Shown: positions 6,758 to 34,752 of the stretch, in pieces
How positions within the stretch are numbered: position 1 is the first letter of the stretch
Layout: every line of letters begins with the position of its first letter
Virus record (IMG/VR): IMGVR_UViG_3300018013_000001
Coordinates: 1-64,000 of that record
Direction: 5' to 3' (one strand)
DNA from: a virus
DNA: 64,000 bases
Translations under genes and position numbers: made by a program
Notes under the pieces: generated by a model
Database searches by the model: none
The model's input: only the letters and a program-made list of their open reading frames with translations
Told to the model about the DNA's origin: nothing

Positions 6758-6790
6758 GCGAAAAAATGGGGACTTATATACATGACTCCC
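6758..6790. repeat. Left 33-bp terminal inverted repeat of the cassette
   Basis: The repeat reads inward GCGAAAAAATGGGGACTT and continues through ATATACATGACTCCC. It pairs with 7886-7918 with two mismatches. Its inner 22 bases (from GGGA to TCCC) are themselves nearly palindromic, so each end could also bind a dimeric protein. Confidence 0.75.
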
Positions 6791-6855
6791 GTGATTGAGA
6801 CTAGCATCCATAACGACTTTCTTGTTGCTTTCACGCCGACATTACGAAGAGCGGC

Positions 6856-7656
6856 TCATAATCCACACATACCTTCACATTCATTCGTGAACAAGTATCC
6901 ACTTTTTCTTCTTTGCTTGTTCGCCACTAGGCCAGCAAGGTCAATCTGTACGAGTGGAACCCTGGAAGAATGGACAAAGACTTCGCCACGAAAATGGCCA
7001 ATCATTTCAGGACTTCGGAGCCTCGCATCAAAGGCGATAAGTTCAGTGAAGGCCGCAGGGTCCGTCTCTTTCAGATGGAGCAGGTGATCATCATCTTGGA
7101 ACGGGCATTGTTTGCAGGCAGACTTAGGGGCTGAACGGTGGAACCTGTCCCAAAGCCATCGCTTACACTCTTCCCGGCTCATCATGACGCTATCTTCCAA
7201 GAGCGGCCACCGATTCACTATGAACTTGACACCGGAGGGCTTCATCCTGTCAGCCTCATCGGTTGAGATTCCTATCCATTGGCTGACTGAGCCTGGGGCT
7301 ATGTACGAACGCGGGCTGAATCCAAGAATTTCTCGAACCTTCCTACGTATCGGGCGGATTTTGAAATTCCTAGTGCATTGTCTCTTAACGAGCCCCCCTG
7401 CCTTTATAAAGAACGGAATGCGGGCCATGTGGTTGCCCTTGAGCAATTGCTCGCTGAGTTTCCCTCTTGTGGTGATGTACACTGGGAACGGCAACATAGA
7501 CTGGAGCCACGCAAGATGAGAATAAACTTCCGCAGGCTCGTCTTGAGTGTCAGCGAAAATGGCCGCATAGGGCATCGGGCTAAGTTCCCCACAGGCGGCC
7601 ATCAGTGCCATTGTGGAAGATTGCACACCTGCTCCGAGGCTAATGATGTGCTGCAC
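6856..7656 (-). CDS. PP-loop ATPase, PAPS-reductase-like family
   Basis: The 266-residue protein begins with a modified PP-loop (residues 5-15, ISLGAGVQSST), the ATP-pyrophosphatase motif of the PAPS reductase/FAD synthetase superfamily. It then shows IFADTQDEP, the segment QCTRNFKIRPIRRKVRE, CKQCPFQ and a C-terminal ECEGMCGL, so Cys residues could hold a metal or an Fe-S cluster. Related proteins are common in phages and genomic islands; their reaction is not established, and sulfur or nucleotide modification is possible. The start is a GTG at 7656; upstream codons belong to the broken frame at 7640-7806. It is the only long gene of the inverted-repeat cassette and runs against all its neighbours. 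Confidence 0.8.
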   Translation of the reverse strand: MQHIISLGAGVQSSTMALMAACGELSPMPYAAIFADTQDEPAEVYSHLAWLQSMLPFPVYITTRGKLSEQLLKGNHMARIPFFIKAGGLVKRQCTRNFKIRPIRRKVREILGFSPRSYIAPGSVSQWIGISTDEADRMKPSGVKFIVNRWPLLEDSVMMSREECKRWLWDRFHRSAPKSACKQCPFQDDDHLLHLKETDPAAFTELIAFDARLRSPEMIGHFRGEVFVHSSRVPLVQIDLAGLVANKQRRKSGYLFTNECEGMCGL

Positions 7657-7806
7657 GTTTCACCTTCTTTGGTTTCTTCGGCTTTGGATGGTAGGCAAGG
7701 ACCGCATCCGTTATGCGGTCCAGCGGCCCTCAAGGTAGAGCCTAGCAGACTCTTCATTCGGGAATGTCTCGAAAAGCTTGAAAGTGCTTATGGTGGATTT
7801 GCTCAT
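7640..7806 (-). pseudogene. Remnant of an IS1595-type transposase start fused out of frame to a basic tail
   Basis: From the ATG at 7806 with GAGGAGA upstream, 31 codons (MSKSTISTFKLFETFPNEES...) end in TAA at 7711. The opening FKLFETFPNEESARLYLEG resembles the start of IS1595-family transposases, just before the zinc ribbon that should follow. A second frame then carries PLDRITDAVLAYHPKPKK and a Lys-rich tail ending at 7640, a motif I associate with small phage or mobile-element proteins. The two parts lie in different frames, so a deletion or frameshift has joined them. It could also be a real 31-residue leader peptide for the PP-loop gene. Confidence 0.45.
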
Positions 7807-7827
7807 TTGCTTTCTCTCCTCACCAGT

Positions 7828-7856
7828 ATAGTAGTTGATTCCCTCAAGGGAGTCAA
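7828..7856 (-). promoter_or_regulatory. Sigma70-like promoter of the minus-strand cassette
   Basis: On the minus strand TTGACT (7856-7851) and TACTAT (7833-7828) are separated by 17 bases. The -35 region and spacer also form an imperfect palindrome (TTGA-TCCCT...AGGGA-TCAA, 7835-7856) that could be an operator. The start codon at 7806 with a good ribosome binding site lies downstream. Confidence 0.5.
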
Positions 7857-7885
7857 GTACTATATTTCCTTTGTTTTCAACGTGA

Positions 7886-7918
7886 GGGAGTTATGTATAT
7901 AAGTCCCAATTTTTTCGC
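7886..7918. repeat. Right 33-bp terminal inverted repeat of the cassette
   Basis: It starts GGGAGTTATGTATATAAG and ends AATTTTTTCGC, the inverse of 6758-6790 with two differences. It lies 30 bases upstream (relative to the minus-strand genes) of a promoter-like sequence, so the cassette genes appear to carry their own promoter inside the element. Confidence 0.75.
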
Positions 7919-21330: not shown

Positions 21331-22449
21331 ATGGCAGTTTATTACAATGAGATTGACCCATTTGCGGCGGCGTGGTTGCGGGAACTGATTAAGGCGGGAC
21401 ATATCGCCAAAGGGGAAGTCGATGGCCGACCCATTAAGGAAGTCAAGAGCGACGAACTTCGCGGGTTCGCCCAATGCCACTTCTTCGCCGGGATCGGCGT
21501 GTGGAGTTACGCCCTTAGAGCGGCTGGATGGGCAGACGATACTCCCGTTTTTACAGGCAGTTGTCCCTGCCAGAGTTTCAGTGCGAGCGGGAAGCGGGGA
21601 GGCTTCTCAGATCAGCGTCACTTATGGCCCGCATGGTTCAGGCTCATCCGAGAGCTACACCCTGACACAATCTTTGGCGAGCAGGTTGCGTCCAAAGACG
21701 GCCTCGCTTGGCTCGACGTTGTTTCGGCTGATTTGGAAGGAGCGGGTTACGCCATCGGGACGGCGGATTTGTGCGCTGCGGGCTTCGGGGCGCCGCACAT
21801 CCGGCAGCGATTGTACTTCGTGGCCGAGTCCGCAGGCGTTCGATTCGAGTCCTTGCGAGAAATCAGGCGAAGCAATGAGCAGGGCAATGGCTGGGAGGGC
21901 GATTCCAGGGCGCAACGGCGGTCCACCAGCGAACCTTCGCGAGAAGGCGAAGCTGGCTGCATGGCCGACGCCGAACTGTATGGACAGCCTACCAAGCGGG
22001 AATCTGGAGGAGCGCAAGACGAAAGGCGGCTGCATCAACCTGAAGGACGTGGCTCCGCTGGCGACCTGGGCGACACCGCACAGCGAGGACTCGGAATGCG
22101 TGGGAGCACATCGGGGGAACGCGGACGGGCTGCACAGCCAGAGCAAACTAACGAATTGGACATCACCAACGTCGAGGGATTGGAAGGGCGACAGTCGGAA
22201 GATGCAGGCCAAGGGACCGAAAGTGCCGGGCGGTGTAAGATTACCGGGCGAGGCTTTACTAACGGCTTCTGGGCCGACGCCGAATGGATCTGGTGCCGGG
22301 ACCAAAAGTACCGGCCAGTTGAACCCGGCACATTCCCGCTGGTTACAGGGGCTACCAACCGTGTGGGACGATTGCGCGGCTATGGTAATTCCCTTACGGC
22401 GCCGGTCGCGGAAGAGTTTATAAGAGCATACATGGAGCTCAATCGATGA
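21331..22449 (+). CDS. C5 cytosine DNA methyltransferase
   Basis: The 372-residue enzyme should transfer a methyl group from S-adenosylmethionine to C5 of cytosine. Motif I is HFFAGIGVWSYALRAAGW, motif IV GSCPCQSFS (catalytic Cys), motif VI is the variant FGEQV, motif VIII HIRQRLYFVAE, and motif X GYGNSLTAPVAEEFI. The middle (about residues 180-300) is polar and Gly/Glu-rich and probably disordered; it coincides with the nested frame at 21422. It may protect phage DNA from restriction. The next gene overlaps by 4 bases. Confidence 0.85.
   Translation: MAVYYNEIDPFAAAWLRELIKAGHIAKGEVDGRPIKEVKSDELRGFAQCHFFAGIGVWSYALRAAGWADDTPVFTGSCPCQSFSASGKRGGFSDQRHLWPAWFRLIRELHPDTIFGEQVASKDGLAWLDVVSADLEGAGYAIGTADLCAAGFGAPHIRQRLYFVAESAGVRFESLREIRRSNEQGNGWEGDSRAQRRSTSEPSREGEAGCMADAELYGQPTKRESGGAQDERRLHQPEGRGSAGDLGDTAQRGLGMRGSTSGERGRAAQPEQTNELDITNVEGLEGRQSEDAGQGTESAGRCKITGRGFTNGFWADAEWIWCRDQKYRPVEPGTFPLVTGATNRVGRLRGYGNSLTAPVAEEFIRAYMELNR
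21422..22423 (+). CDS. Nested +1-frame gene inside the methyltransferase
   Basis: A 333-codon frame lies wholly inside the methyltransferase gene in the +1 frame. Its product is not random: it contains LASRLRPKTASLGSTLFRLI, WKERVTPSGRRICALRAS, repeated Trp-Pro-Ser/Thr-Pro units (WPSP, WPTP, WATP) and GQLNPAHSRWLQGLPTVWDD. I recall the same strings from a family of phage proteins usually annotated beside or as DNA cytosine methyltransferase. Function unknown. The ATG at 21422 has GGGGAAG upstream. Both frames therefore seem to be under selection. Confidence 0.6.
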   Translation: MADPLRKSRATNFAGSPNATSSPGSACGVTPLERLDGQTILPFLQAVVPARVSVRAGSGEASQISVTYGPHGSGSSESYTLTQSLASRLRPKTASLGSTLFRLIWKERVTPSGRRICALRASGRRTSGSDCTSWPSPQAFDSSPCEKSGEAMSRAMAGRAIPGRNGGPPANLREKAKLAAWPTPNCMDSLPSGNLEERKTKGGCINLKDVAPLATWATPHSEDSECVGAHRGNADGLHSQSKLTNWTSPTSRDWKGDSRKMQAKGPKVPGGVRLPGEALLTASGPTPNGSGAGTKSTGQLNPAHSRWLQGLPTVWDDCAAMVIPLRRRSRKSL

Positions 22450-25118: not shown

Positions 25119-25129
25119 GAGAGGTGGTC

Positions 25130-26224
25130 ATGGCCGTTCAAGAGCAAAAAGTGACGGAACGATATGCGGTCTACCTCGGGGACGCCATCGAAGTTCTGAA
25201 GAACTTCCGAAAGGAATCCGTTCACCTTTCGATCTACTCCCCGCCGTTCGCCACTTCCGGGGGTGCCCTTTACAGGTATTCATCGAGCGAACGAGATATT
25301 TCAAACTCGTTGAGCTATGAGCAATTCTTCGATCATTATAGCTACCTAATGCATGAAGTGTGGAGGCTGACCATGCCGGGGCGAATCAGTGCGGTCCACT
25401 GCATGGACATCGCTTCTGGGAATACGGGCAACGATCATTTGACCGACTTCCCCGGTGACATTATCCGTCTCCACGCGGGCTGCCGCGAAAAAAACTGCAA
25501 GGCGAATCACTACGACCGCACGAGCGGAAAATGCGGACACGGCCTCTGGCATCACACCGGGCGCTACTGCGTCTGGAAAGAACCTCTCAAGGTGAGGAAC
25601 AGGACGATGGCCAAGCATCTTTTCCACAAGGTTGCCGTGGAAGATTCGGCGCGTTGCAGCCCGGCTCTCGCCGATTATGTTCTGATTTTCAGAAAGAAGG
25701 GTGACAACGCGGTCCCGATTGCTCATCCACGCGGCCTGATCTATTATGCCGGAGAGCGCAAGCCCCCGGCAGACGTGCTTCATTACAAGGGCTGGAAGGG
25801 GGATCAGATTCAGAACAGATACTCGCATTGGATTTGGCGTCAATATGCGTCTGCCTTTTGGGATGACATCCGCGTTGATCACGTTCTGAAGCACCGGCAG
25901 GCTAGGGACGAGCAGGACGAGGACCATGTTCATCCGCTCCAACTGGACGTCATCGACCGGATCGTTACGCTCTGGTCGAATCCTGGAGAGACCGTGTTGA
26001 GCCCATGCGCGGGAGTAGGCAGCGAAGTCTACGGAGCTCTGTGTAATGATCGGAGAGCCATCGGCGTGGAACTCAAGCCGTCCTATTATCGGATGATGCT
26101 GAAAAACATCTCTGAGGCTAAAGTTCGGGAAGATGATGACGAGCCGACCTTCAGTTTTTACGAGAAATCAACAGAGGGGGAAGTTGAGGATGTCGAAGCT
26201 GAAGAGGCCGAAGCAACCGCCTAA
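25130..26224 (+). CDS. N4/N6-type DNA methyltransferase
   Basis: The 364-residue enzyme should methylate adenine N6 or cytosine N4. The catalytic motif is SIYSPPFATSGG (about residues 30-42), and the SAM-binding motif comes near the C terminus, VLSPCAGVGSEVYGAL with AIGVELK, which is the beta-class order. The middle has a Cys/His-rich insertion (GCREKNCKANHYDRTSGKCG), which may bind zinc. The ATG at 25130 has GGAGAGG upstream; a GTG at 25124 is possible. The target sequence cannot be read from the sequence. Confidence 0.85.
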   Translation: MAVQEQKVTERYAVYLGDAIEVLKNFRKESVHLSIYSPPFATSGGALYRYSSSERDISNSLSYEQFFDHYSYLMHEVWRLTMPGRISAVHCMDIASGNTGNDHLTDFPGDIIRLHAGCREKNCKANHYDRTSGKCGHGLWHHTGRYCVWKEPLKVRNRTMAKHLFHKVAVEDSARCSPALADYVLIFRKKGDNAVPIAHPRGLIYYAGERKPPADVLHYKGWKGDQIQNRYSHWIWRQYASAFWDDIRVDHVLKHRQARDEQDEDHVHPLQLDVIDRIVTLWSNPGETVLSPCAGVGSEVYGALCNDRRAIGVELKPSYYRMMLKNISEAKVREDDDEPTFSFYEKSTEGEVEDVEAEEAEATA

Positions 26225-32012: not shown

Positions 32013-32621
32013 ATGGCCCCGCGCAAGCTCGACCTGAGAACCCGCCAGCGACTAATGAAGTCGAGGATGGGGAAGGCGCCCAAGCGCCAGCCTCCCAAGG
32101 TCAAGAAACCTGTCGGCAGGCCGCCCATGTACAGCAAAGACAAGGCGGCTCGCATCTGCATCGAGATCGCCACGACGACCCGCAGCCTGAAGGACATCTG
32201 CGACAGCAATCCTACCTTTCCAGACCCAAGGACAGTTTATAAATGGCTTTCCTTGAATGAAGAGTTCAGGCAGATGTATCAATCAGCCAAGCAGGATCAG
32301 GCTCAGATTCTGGCTGACGAGCTGATCGCGATAGCCGACACTCCCAAGCACGGGCAAGTCATAACGGCGTGGCCCGGTCAGAAGGATAGGGCCGGGAATC
32401 CCAAGCCAAAAGAGATCAAGGTTGCCGACATGATCGAGCACCGACGCCTTCAGATCGAGACGCGGCGCTGGCTGCTCTCAAAGCTCAGGCCGAGGGAGTA
32501 TGGCGACAAGATCGAGGTGACTGAGGGAAGCGACCCACTGCAAGAGCTTCTGGACGCATGGCGCGAGGAGCACGCTCAGCAGGTGAAAAAGGAACAATCC
32601 AGTGTCAAGCCAGCGACTTAA
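32013..32621 (+). CDS. terS: Terminase small subunit
   Basis: The 202-residue protein should recognise the packaging site and regulate TerL. Residues 1-35 are basic and Pro-rich. Residues about 42-90 (ICIEIATTTRSLKDICDSNP, TVYKWLSLNEEFRQMYQSAK) are a helix-turn-helix typical of terminase small subunits, followed by a helical oligomerisation part. It overlaps the start of the large subunit, the normal order. Possible pac or cos sequences cannot be identified. Confidence 0.75.
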   Translation: MAPRKLDLRTRQRLMKSRMGKAPKRQPPKVKKPVGRPPMYSKDKAARICIEIATTTRSLKDICDSNPTFPDPRTVYKWLSLNEEFRQMYQSAKQDQAQILADELIAIADTPKHGQVITAWPGQKDRAGNPKPKEIKVADMIEHRRLQIETRRWLLSKLRPREYGDKIEVTEGSDPLQELLDAWREEHAQQVKKEQSSVKPAT

Positions 32622-34752
32622 CTTCGGAGAGAGACTTGGAAGGTTCGCCAAAACCCCTCCCGAAGAAGACTGCAAGCTCAGCATCCTAGAAGGCTCCGTC
32701 CGGTCAGGCAAAACTTGGGCACAGCATGCTAAGATTCTTTGGGGCTGCCGGTACAACGTCGCCGGATGGAAGGTTCTCACTGGAGTAACCAAAGACACCG
32801 TTTTCAAGAATGTGCTCAACGATCTGTTCTCTTTGATCGGTCCCCACAGGTACTCTTACAACCATCAATCCGGGCTGCTGAGAATCGACCGCTCGACATG
32901 GACGGTGATGGGAGCGAAGGACGAGGGCTCGGAGAAGTTCATCCGCGGGTTGACCGTTGGTTACGTGGTCTGCGACGAGCTCTCGCTGATGCCCTTCGAA
33001 TTCCTTCAAATGCTCATCACGCGCATGTCGCCGGAGGGGGCGCGGCTCTACGGCAGCACCAACGCTGACACGCCTCTTCATCCTCTGAGGACAGAGATCC
33101 TGGACAACCAGAAGCTGACGGACGCCGGGCTGCTGTACTCGATGCATTGCACGATGGACGATAATCCGAATCTCACGGAAGAGTACAAAAAATCTCAGGA
33201 GCTTCTGTACACTGGGCTTTTCTATCAGCGCTACATCAAGGGCTTGTGGGTGATGGCCGAGGGCGTGATCTACAGAGACGCGTGGAAAGACGAGAGCACG
33301 TTCACGGACAAAGACTTGCCTGTCGGCTTGATGTGGGGCGGACAGACTCGTGAGCGCGTTATCTCGGTCGATTACGGAACGGTGAACCCGAACGTGTTTC
33401 TGGATTGGCGCGATGATGGAGTGACGGCCTGGTGCTACAATGAAAAACGTTGGGATTCCGCCAAAGAGATGAAACAGAAGACGGATTCTGAGCTTGCCGA
33501 CGACTTGTACGAGTTCACGGAGCATGACCAATCTCCTCAGATCGTGGTCGATCCCAGCGCGGCCAGCTTCAAGCAGGAGCTGACGAACCGAGGCTGGTGG
33601 GTGACGGATGCCGTGAACGACGTTCAGTCTGGCATTTCAAAAACTTCCACCGCGCTGGCCAAAGGTGTGATAAGGTTTCACCGTGACAACTGCAAGGCGA
33701 CGATCGCCGAGTTCCAAACATACGCCTGGGACCCTAAGAGGGCGCTGCGCGGGATCGAGGAGCCAATTAAATCTGGCGATCATGGATGTTTTATAGCAGG
33801 AACGAAAATCATGACTCCTGATGGCGAAAGAAATATTGAAGAGTTCCGTGCCGGAGATCGTGTCCTTACTCCCCTCGGTCAGTGTAAAGTCCTTACAGTC
33901 CGAGAAATTCCCGACCAGCAGATTGTCGAGTGGCATCGCTTGCGAGGACTGCCGAATCATCCAATCGCTACGAGAAAAGGCTGGACAAGGATTGATGCCA
34001 CGAGATATAATGAGCAAGTATGCGAGTGGAATCCAGAACATTCAACGGTATCATTTTCAGGCGCTATCCAGAAGCTAAAGACTGGTCTAGCCGCAATTAT
34101 TTCAGGCCGAGCCAGGTTCATGGTCGTAAGAGAGTGGAGAGCCTTCACCGGGAAGTGTGGAAAAAATATCATGGTGCTATTCCAAAAGGCTATGATGTTC
34201 ATCACGCGGATGATGATACCGGAAACAATGACATCACCAATCTGGAATTGTTGCCCGGGCCTATTCATGATTCGCTTTCTGGAAAGAAAGCATCTCATGA
34301 TTTCGAGCACCTTGCCAGAATACGGCCACTGGCTAAAGCATGGCACGCATCACCAGAAGGATTGGACTGGCATCGAGATCATGGGAAAGAAGCGATGCAA
34401 AAACGCAAGGCTGTTGGATTCATCTGTCAGAACTGCGGTGCGCATTTTCTTTCGAAACAGCGCGGCGAATGCGCTAAATTCTGCTCTAACAAGTGCAAGT
34501 CGGCTGCCAGGCGTAAATCGGGCGTGGACGATGTTCCCAAGATTTGCGCGACATGCAGCGAGACTTTCCTCGCTAATAAATATCAAAGAATCCTCAATTG
34601 TCCAAAGTGCCGTTAAAGATGCTGGCAGAGCAAGTGTCTTTGCACTGAGAACGGAGCATGGGTGCTATTATGCGAATGGCATCCTTGTTAGCAATTGTGA
34701 CGCGGCCAGATATTTCTGTGCCACCAAGATTCCGGTCTGGCGGCTGATGTGA
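32602..34752 (+). CDS. terL: Terminase large subunit interrupted by an intein
   Basis: The 716-codon frame encodes an ATPase-nuclease that pumps DNA into the capsid. The ATPase shows Walker A EGSVRSGKT (30-38) and Walker B YVVCDELSL (121-129). The RNase-H-like nuclease shows ISVDYGT and VVDPSAASF. At residue 396, inside the last nuclease motif (DHG|CDAARY), an in-frame intein of 303 residues begins; the extein resumes at residue 699 and ends after 18 residues. The spliced protein would have 413 residues, a normal size. The gene starts on GTG inside terS. Confidence 0.85.
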   Translation: MSSQRLNFGERLGRFAKTPPEEDCKLSILEGSVRSGKTWAQHAKILWGCRYNVAGWKVLTGVTKDTVFKNVLNDLFSLIGPHRYSYNHQSGLLRIDRSTWTVMGAKDEGSEKFIRGLTVGYVVCDELSLMPFEFLQMLITRMSPEGARLYGSTNADTPLHPLRTEILDNQKLTDAGLLYSMHCTMDDNPNLTEEYKKSQELLYTGLFYQRYIKGLWVMAEGVIYRDAWKDESTFTDKDLPVGLMWGGQTRERVISVDYGTVNPNVFLDWRDDGVTAWCYNEKRWDSAKEMKQKTDSELADDLYEFTEHDQSPQIVVDPSAASFKQELTNRGWWVTDAVNDVQSGISKTSTALAKGVIRFHRDNCKATIAEFQTYAWDPKRALRGIEEPIKSGDHGCFIAGTKIMTPDGERNIEEFRAGDRVLTPLGQCKVLTVREIPDQQIVEWHRLRGLPNHPIATRKGWTRIDATRYNEQVCEWNPEHSTVSFSGAIQKLKTGLAAIISGRARFMVVREWRAFTGKCGKNIMVLFQKAMMFITRMMIPETMTSPIWNCCPGLFMIRFLERKHLMISSTLPEYGHWLKHGTHHQKDWTGIEIMGKKRCKNARLLDSSVRTAVRIFFRNSAANALNSALTSASRLPGVNRAWTMFPRFARHAARLSSLINIKESSIVQSAVKDAGRASVFALRTEHGCYYANGILVSNCDAARYFCATKIPVWRLM
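33787..34695 (+). other. Intein in terL with a nested out-of-frame HNH gene
   Basis: The intein starts with CFIAGTKIMTPDGERNIEEF and RAGDRVLTPLG (block A), then GLPNHPIATRKGW (block B with the His), and ends with YYANGILVSN before Cys+1 (block G). The usual His before the last Asn is Ser here. Both splicing halves lie in the terL frame. The 200 codons between them have shadow-like composition (many Met, Trp, Cys) but no stop, and the same DNA encodes an HNH endonuclease in another frame. Confidence 0.8.
34020..34616 (+). CDS. HNH homing endonuclease nested in the intein, alternate frame
   Basis: The 198-residue protein has a homing-type HNH core: LHREVWKKYHGAIPKGYDVH followed by HADDDTGNNDITNLELLPGP. 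Two zinc-ribbon pairs follow (CQNCG...CSNKC and CATC...CPKC). It is encoded in frame 0, whereas the intein is in frame 1, and it fills exactly the space between the two splicing halves. It should cut intein-free terL alleles and so spread the intein. The start ATG at 34020 has only a weak GAG upstream; a shift from the terL frame is another way it could be made. Confidence 0.8.
   Translation: MRVESRTFNGIIFRRYPEAKDWSSRNYFRPSQVHGRKRVESLHREVWKKYHGAIPKGYDVHHADDDTGNNDITNLELLPGPIHDSLSGKKASHDFEHLARIRPLAKAWHASPEGLDWHRDHGKEAMQKRKAVGFICQNCGAHFLSKQRGECAKFCSNKCKSAARRKSGVDDVPKICATCSETFLANKYQRILNCPKCR

Follow-up and report, generated by a model that had tools for sequence, protein, structure and literature searches.

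Organization of the cassette

The DNA considered here is a 64,000-nt window of the viral record IMGVR_UViG_3300018013_000001 (full record 70 kb), and all coordinates are positions in that window. At 6758–7918, an earlier note had read a 1.16-kb block with 33-bp inverted repeats at its ends as a non-autonomous passenger cassette in a phage, with its own promoter, the first codons of an IS1595-type transposase and a PAPS-reductase-like PP-loop gene. The block adjoins a GH108-type endolysin gene, and the insertion lies between this gene and an early-gene region. Large open reading frames (ORFs) beyond it resemble, by eye, DnaB, terminase, portal and tail-sheath proteins, and for these reasons the record is taken to be that of a phage; it has no nucleotide relatives among GenBank phages. 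Reading inward from the right end, the order is a terminal inverted repeat (TIR), an inner TIR-like copy with a candidate −35, 28 transposase codons, a junction, the 3′ part of a small ORF, the PP-loop gene and the second TIR. The features are listed below, where labels such as L182 and L206 denote loci compared in the analysis.

6758–6768, + strand: outer 11 bp of the left 33-bp arm, GCGAAAAAATG; belongs to the phage flank and not to the TIR
6769–6790, + strand: distal TIR, GGGACTTATATACATGACTCCC; the same TIR occurs in viral elements, and the final 45 bp of this end are 98% identical to L182
6856–7656, − strand: PP-loop (PAPS-reductase-like) gene, 266 amino acids, GTG start; matches phrog_424 (E = 9.6e-29) and PADLOC SspD (E = 4e-12)
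7640–7729, − strand: small basic ORF, truncated so that its start is missing, LDRITDAVLAYHPKPKKPKKVKRAAHH; its 3′ end overlaps the start of the PP-loop gene
7711–7806, − strand: IS1595 transposase remnant, MSKSTISTFKLFETFPNEESARLYLEG followed by RWTA and a stop; 28 codons matched by tblastn to intact transposases
7723–7724, no strand: predicted internal deletion junction, joining transposase codon ~28 to sequence located downstream of the transposase in L206
7828–7856, − strand (read 7856–7828): candidate promoter TTGACT-17-TACTAT, upstream of the transposase remnant, with its −35 inside the inner TIR-like copy
7848–7870, − strand: inner TIR-like repeat, AGGAAATATAGTACTTGACTCCC; 91% identical to the L206 TIR over 23 bp, with a comparable double arrangement in L097
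7886–7907, − strand: transposase-proximal TIR, GGGACTTATATACATAACTCCC; the initial 44 bp of this end are 98% identical to L182
7908–7918, + strand: outer 11 bp of the right 33-bp arm, AATTTTTTCGC; likewise flank

The 33-nt arms (6758–6790 and 7886–7918) are present and complementary at 31 of 33 positions, but the transposon is shorter than the block they enclose. In the relatives described below, host DNA and 8-bp duplications start directly outside the GGG of a 22-bp core, so that the core alone represents the TIR, GCGAAAAAATG and AATTTTTTCGC are flank, and the element, judged from this comparison, is 6769–7907 (1139 bp); for the same reason the whole 33 bp was rejected as TIR. The two 22-bp TIRs are identical at 21 of 22 positions. 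The window has exactly two copies of the core pattern, whereas 100 shuffles gave none, and its two sites in the whole 70-kb record are both cassette ends. Each TIR is quasi-palindromic (16/22), as the earlier note had seen, but the property it called unusual is common to the whole element family and not peculiar to this copy.

The transposase start was correctly recognized. Over its 28 codons the remnant aligns at 75–82% identity with several intact IS1595 transposases from elements that have the same TIRs (best E = 1e-14), and the junction can be placed against L206, with element positions 102–184 corresponding to L206 71–153 and positions 185–230 to L206 1018–1063. With its transposase cut to 28 codons, the window element is an IS1595-family derivative and not an intact member, and no IS1595 transposase is found in the 70-kb record. 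The promoter claim holds to the extent that TTGACT-17-TACTAT is present, but consensus matches are no better than chance (2 found versus 1.5 expected). TTGAC is frequent in the transposase-proximal TIRs of relatives.

Related elements in phage contigs

A degenerate version of the ends was scanned across 2.9 million viral contigs (IMG/VR), and the figures given for the family rest on the loci fetched among the matches listed. At least 78 distinct elements with inverted ends are present in these loci. A perfect 8-bp direct duplication lies directly outside the 22-bp ends in 64 of the 78, whereas flanks paired across different elements match perfectly in 4 of 6006 pairings, and insertion favors AT-rich, palindromic targets (YWWNNWWR). 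A full IS1595 transposase (~305 amino acids) together with other ORFs is found in 33 elements, a partial one in 7 and none in 38. The one intact transposase scanned matched DDE_Tnp_IS1595 (PF12762, E = 5.7e-47) and Zn_ribbon_IS1595 (PF12760, E = 3.1e-09); 8-bp duplications and a zinc ribbon are typical of most of the IS1595 family (PMC8101967). The empty site of one element (L109, 1457 bp) is seen in the related contig L117 as a single copy of the target ATTTAATA, and one 1561-bp insertion sequence (IS), 99.7–99.9% identical between copies, is found at three unrelated places, each flanked by its own duplication (L040, L092 and L112). Taken together, the duplications, the empty site and the multi-site copies identify these elements as transposons with 22-bp ends.

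Could the repeats instead be phage regulatory or recombination sites around an invertible or exchangeable segment? The quasi-palindromic ends, and flanks that lengthen the inverted repeat by 11 bp, would suit such sites. However, in dozens of contigs these TIRs enclose cargo of unrelated kinds and are flanked by 8-bp direct duplications, an IS1595 transposase accompanies them in 33 elements, there is a clean empty site, and the segment was not seen in the opposite orientation. For the family as a whole the hypothesis is refuted, and we consider it highly improbable for the window element.

How would an element that encodes no transposase come to be mobile? The 38 transposase-less elements are 295–1216 bp long and 33 of them are flanked by perfect duplications, which indicates that such cassettes moved as units; homologous transposase-less cassettes also occupy different sites (L016/L063 and L053/L057). 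The window element shares its TIRs with elements that encode IS1595 transposases and so falls within this family. An intact transposase together with a passenger is absent from it and present in L206, L073, L083 and L197; of these, L206 and L073 have the same gene order as the window element and a related PP-loop gene. The search for the same ends beside intact transposases that the earlier note had proposed was answered in dozens of phage contigs, and the finding of the same TIRs on both autonomous and transposase-less elements supports its reading of a non-autonomous passenger cassette.

The closest relative by ends, L182, was found in two contigs of one phage. The likeness to the window element lies in its first 44 and last 45 bp (98%), the interior being different, and it has a perfect 8-bp duplication and no intact transposase. 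L182 retains the transposase C-terminus (GKRITYKELTA) where the window element retains the N-terminus, and it encodes a full small basic ORF and a different PP-loop protein. The same ends around differing insides make these two elements sister cassettes with complementary transposase deletions and different cargo.

A mobile insertion cassette or a relic?

In the window element, IS inverted repeats surround a gene unrelated to transposition and no functional transposase lies inside, which is the composition of a mobile insertion cassette (MIC). The shared TIRs, the duplication at L182, the forms taken by other relatives and the cargo enrichment described below all lead to the same reading, namely that the block is very probably a transposase-less MIC derived by internal deletion from an IS1595 transporter IS (tIS), residing in a phage and probably moved in trans.

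Several observations at the window locus weigh against this reading. The 8-bp flanks AAAAAATG and AATTTTTT match directly at only 3 of 8 positions, so that the duplication typical of IS1595 is lacking, and the two flanks are inverted relative to each other with a 10/11 match. Searches with the endolysin and with a DUF2335 protein found no empty site for the window insertion, and the proposed comparison with an uninterrupted site thus succeeded for the sister element L109 alone. Only two other contigs have the right-hand neighbor gene, both with the same insertion, and L190, the nearest relative with the left-hand endolysin gene, diverges just past that gene. Moreover, no movement in trans was observed, and mobilization of the window cassette would follow by extension from the duplications around transposase-less relatives, L182 included.

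An alternative hypothesis holds that the block no longer moves, being the relic of an old IS1595 insertion that lost its transposase in situ; its PP-loop gene would be kept or merely linger, with no movement in trans. That the window copy has no direct duplication, that the record has no transposase and that three contigs of a single phage lineage share this insertion would all be expected of such a relic. It accounts poorly for L182, which has near-identical ends, no intact transposase and yet a perfect duplication, and for the duplicated transposase-less elements and homologous cassettes at different sites noted above, and we judge it unlikely. As for the inverted flanks, possible causes are recombination between two insertions, a later rearrangement, or a mutated palindromic AT-rich target. 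One second element with inverted instead of direct 8-bp flanks was seen (L203:229–2098, TTCTTGAA / TTCAAGAA). A separate class of "inverted duplication", of which L203 would be the other example, was not adopted, since partial inverted matches are expected by chance at targets that are AT-rich and palindromic.

Under the preferred reading of a mobile insertion cassette, the ancestor would have consisted of a TIR, a transposase, a small basic ORF, a PP-loop gene and a second TIR, from which most of the transposase would then have been lost by internal deletion. A further copy in the same cell would provide the transposase that moves, or has moved, the resulting cassette in trans. The small basic ORF of this scheme is conserved in 27 elements (for example L087, L182 and L206-like elements), including some that are transposase-less. 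It is ~42 amino acids long and strongly basic (MKKPKPPKxLDAIADVVLRYRPKPKSKPAKRRKRR...), and its differences by codon position (1017:577:2343) are those of a reading frame under purifying selection. It has no Pfam match and no match in a plasmid search, and it is possibly an accessory or regulator of transposition.

Two arrangements were seen among the related elements. In L057:477–1956, two adjacent elements with the common 8-bp target CTATATTG form a tandem insertion. Elsewhere the TIR provides an inward ATG at one end (ATGACTCCC, MTP) and a stop at the other (GAGTTATGTATATAA, ELCI stop), as in L021:1728–2420 and L069:1012–1338, so that some cassettes are exactly one gene running from TIR to TIR.

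Cargo of the family and the PP-loop passenger

The control for cargo content was the set of 131 ORFs in the flanks of the same contigs. Proteins of phrog_424 occur in 10 of 78 elements and in at most 1 of the 131 flank ORFs (Fisher p = 3e-4 by element and 4e-3 by ORF), this upper limit being set by the absence of phrog_424 from the families listed for the flanks. N6/N4 methylases number 6 in cargo versus 2 in flanks and C5 methylases 3 versus 1, and further cargo includes three Mom-like proteins, Dam, a QueD-like PTPS protein, a MazG-like protein and TnpB. Cargo is non-random and enriched for DNA-modification and PP-loop genes; these statistics cover elements gathered through one TIR motif, and some of the cargo ORFs are antisense. 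Near-identical transposase modules carry different cargo in L087/L100 and in L009/L073.

QueD-type and TnpB cargo was observed in elements without an IS1595 transposase. The transposase-less element L198:745–1899 carries a QueD/PTPS-like gene and a phrog_15826 gene and looks like a two-gene 7-deazaguanine-type cassette; the L006 element has the same length, 1155 bp. In L025:3433–4595 and L121:2001–3178, an IS605-type TnpB (OrfB) lies between the IS1595-type TIRs.

What does the PP-loop protein of the window do? Its description as PAPS-reductase-like is confirmed at the level of phrog_424, annotated as PAPS reductase in PHROGs. The protein retains 25 invariant columns of its family (39 homologs), its AlphaFold model has a pLDDT of 92, and the nearest solved structures found by Foldseek are PAPS/APS reductases, at only moderate similarity (E = 8e-4, TM-score ~0.43). 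One hypothesis is that it is a true PAPS reductase, a sulfur-assimilation auxiliary gene that aids host metabolism during infection, and both the PHROGs annotation and the fold search rank PAPS/APS reductase first. On the other hand, Pfam gives no family, PAPS_reduct included, at E ≤ 1, the TM-scores are only ~0.4, and the accompanying cargo of the family consists of DNA-modification genes. The family motif GAGVQSS, six conserved cysteines and a C-terminal CEGMCG also distinguish the protein from classical CysH, which ends in ECGLH. We regard this hypothesis as rather improbable. The PADLOC SspD model, for which no curated cut-off is given, covers residues 2–213 of the window protein and matches all eight PP-loop cargoes tested (the window and seven others, with 6.7e-37 for L182). 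We take the match as a superfamily-level hint of sulfur-transfer chemistry on nucleic acids, short of an identification. With less confidence, we infer that the passenger benefits the phage through nucleic-acid modification or counter-restriction, as many of the family's other passengers may do.

In a tree of the 39 homologs, the GAGVQSS-type proteins of L206, L073 and the window stand apart from one another, at three positions among genes outside transposons, for which reason the PP-loop genes look separately captured; the element family has probably captured such genes repeatedly. The window protein is 61% identical to the non-transposon phage homolog L124 and 54% to that of L206. Direct descent from L206 was rejected for the cargo on this account, and only the architecture is common to L206 and the window element. 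No hidden TIRs were found around the non-transposon homologs L124–L132.

A possibly virus-adapted lineage

Genes for terminase, portal and capsid proteins lie in the flanks of the family elements, a finding that supports the contigs being phages. The exact TIR variant was found in 40 stretches of viral contigs and once in 257 Gb of bacterial and archaeal genomes. That single site (L208:659, in a Nitrospinota metagenome-assembled genome) adjoins adenine methyltransferase-like and restriction enzyme-like genes and has no second TIR within 7 mismatches. Among GenBank phage records there were only three distant transposase matches.

These distributions bear on whether there is a phage-adapted family at all, or whether the elements are common bacterial IS1595 elements that reached prophages from host chromosomes. 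IS1595 transposases are common on plasmids, at 37–46% identity (at most 46% among the matches listed), and temperate phages are believed to gain their ISs chiefly in the integrated state (PMC8136500), both of which fit such a bacterial origin; a simple scan found no TIRs for the plasmid relatives. The 40-to-one distribution of the TIR variant and the phage-type cargo argue otherwise, as do the transposases of the phage elements, which group apart from the sampled plasmid ones (support 81/94), all of the former having been collected by the same TIR motif. A purely bacterial origin is thus doubtful, and the lineage appears to be virus-adapted.

Other features of the window were seen by eye outside the cassette. 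The terminase large subunit ORF at 32602–34752 has an intein-like insertion (CFIAGTKIMTPDGERNIEEF ... GILVSNCD), and two further DNA-methyltransferase-like ORFs lie at 21331–22449 and 25124–26224.

Discussion

MICs were first described for IS231 and MIC231 of Bacillus cereus (PMC3129680 and references therein), and PMC3129680 credits the tIS of the IS1595 family to Siguier et al. 2009. Like a MIC, the window element has IS ends around a passenger, no transposase and presumed mobilization in trans by a related IS; it differs in its IS1595-type ends, its location in a phage and the DNA-modification and PP-loop cargo of its family. The likeness to tIS lies in relatives such as L206, L073, L083 and L197, which carry an IS1595 transposase and passengers between the same TIRs, whereas the window copy has lost its transposase and many family members also carry the small basic ORF. 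With the CysH-like phage morons of phrog_424 the passenger shares the PP-loop fold and occurrence in phages, but it lies inside a transposon, lacks a Pfam PAPS_reduct match and has the GAGVQSS motif. With the SspD/DndC phosphorothioation proteins it shares the superfamily-level match, but no SspA, SspB or SspC partner lies inside the cassette, the search for partners having been confined to it. MICs and tIS are thus known kinds of element (PMC3129680), and what appears new with respect to the open literature is the phage-borne lineage, the one-gene cassettes and the cargo bias. A search of open-licence papers found nothing direct on phage-borne IS1595 cargo elements.

The entry of single moron or auxiliary genes into unrelated phages is mostly ascribed to illegitimate or homologous recombination. 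The elements described here offer a defined transposition route for single genes in dozens of environmental phages: ends, target duplications and an empty site can be recognized, the elements occur with and without a transposase of their own, and cargo is swapped between near-identical elements. IS in phages are thought to be rare, and in virulent phages very rare (PMC8136500). The TIR motif is also a cheap handle for finding cassettes in bulk and for discovering new counter-defense genes by position. With lower confidence, the family may carry single accessory genes from phage to phage, and our results suggest that phages exchange DNA-modification and PAPS-reductase-like genes by transposition. 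We tentatively hypothesize, at somewhat less than even confidence, that a virus-adapted IS1595 lineage serves as a cassette exchange among environmental phages, one that would capture counter-restriction and modification genes (methyltransferases, Mom, QueD and PP-loop), shed its transposase and spread one-gene cassettes in trans at co-infection.
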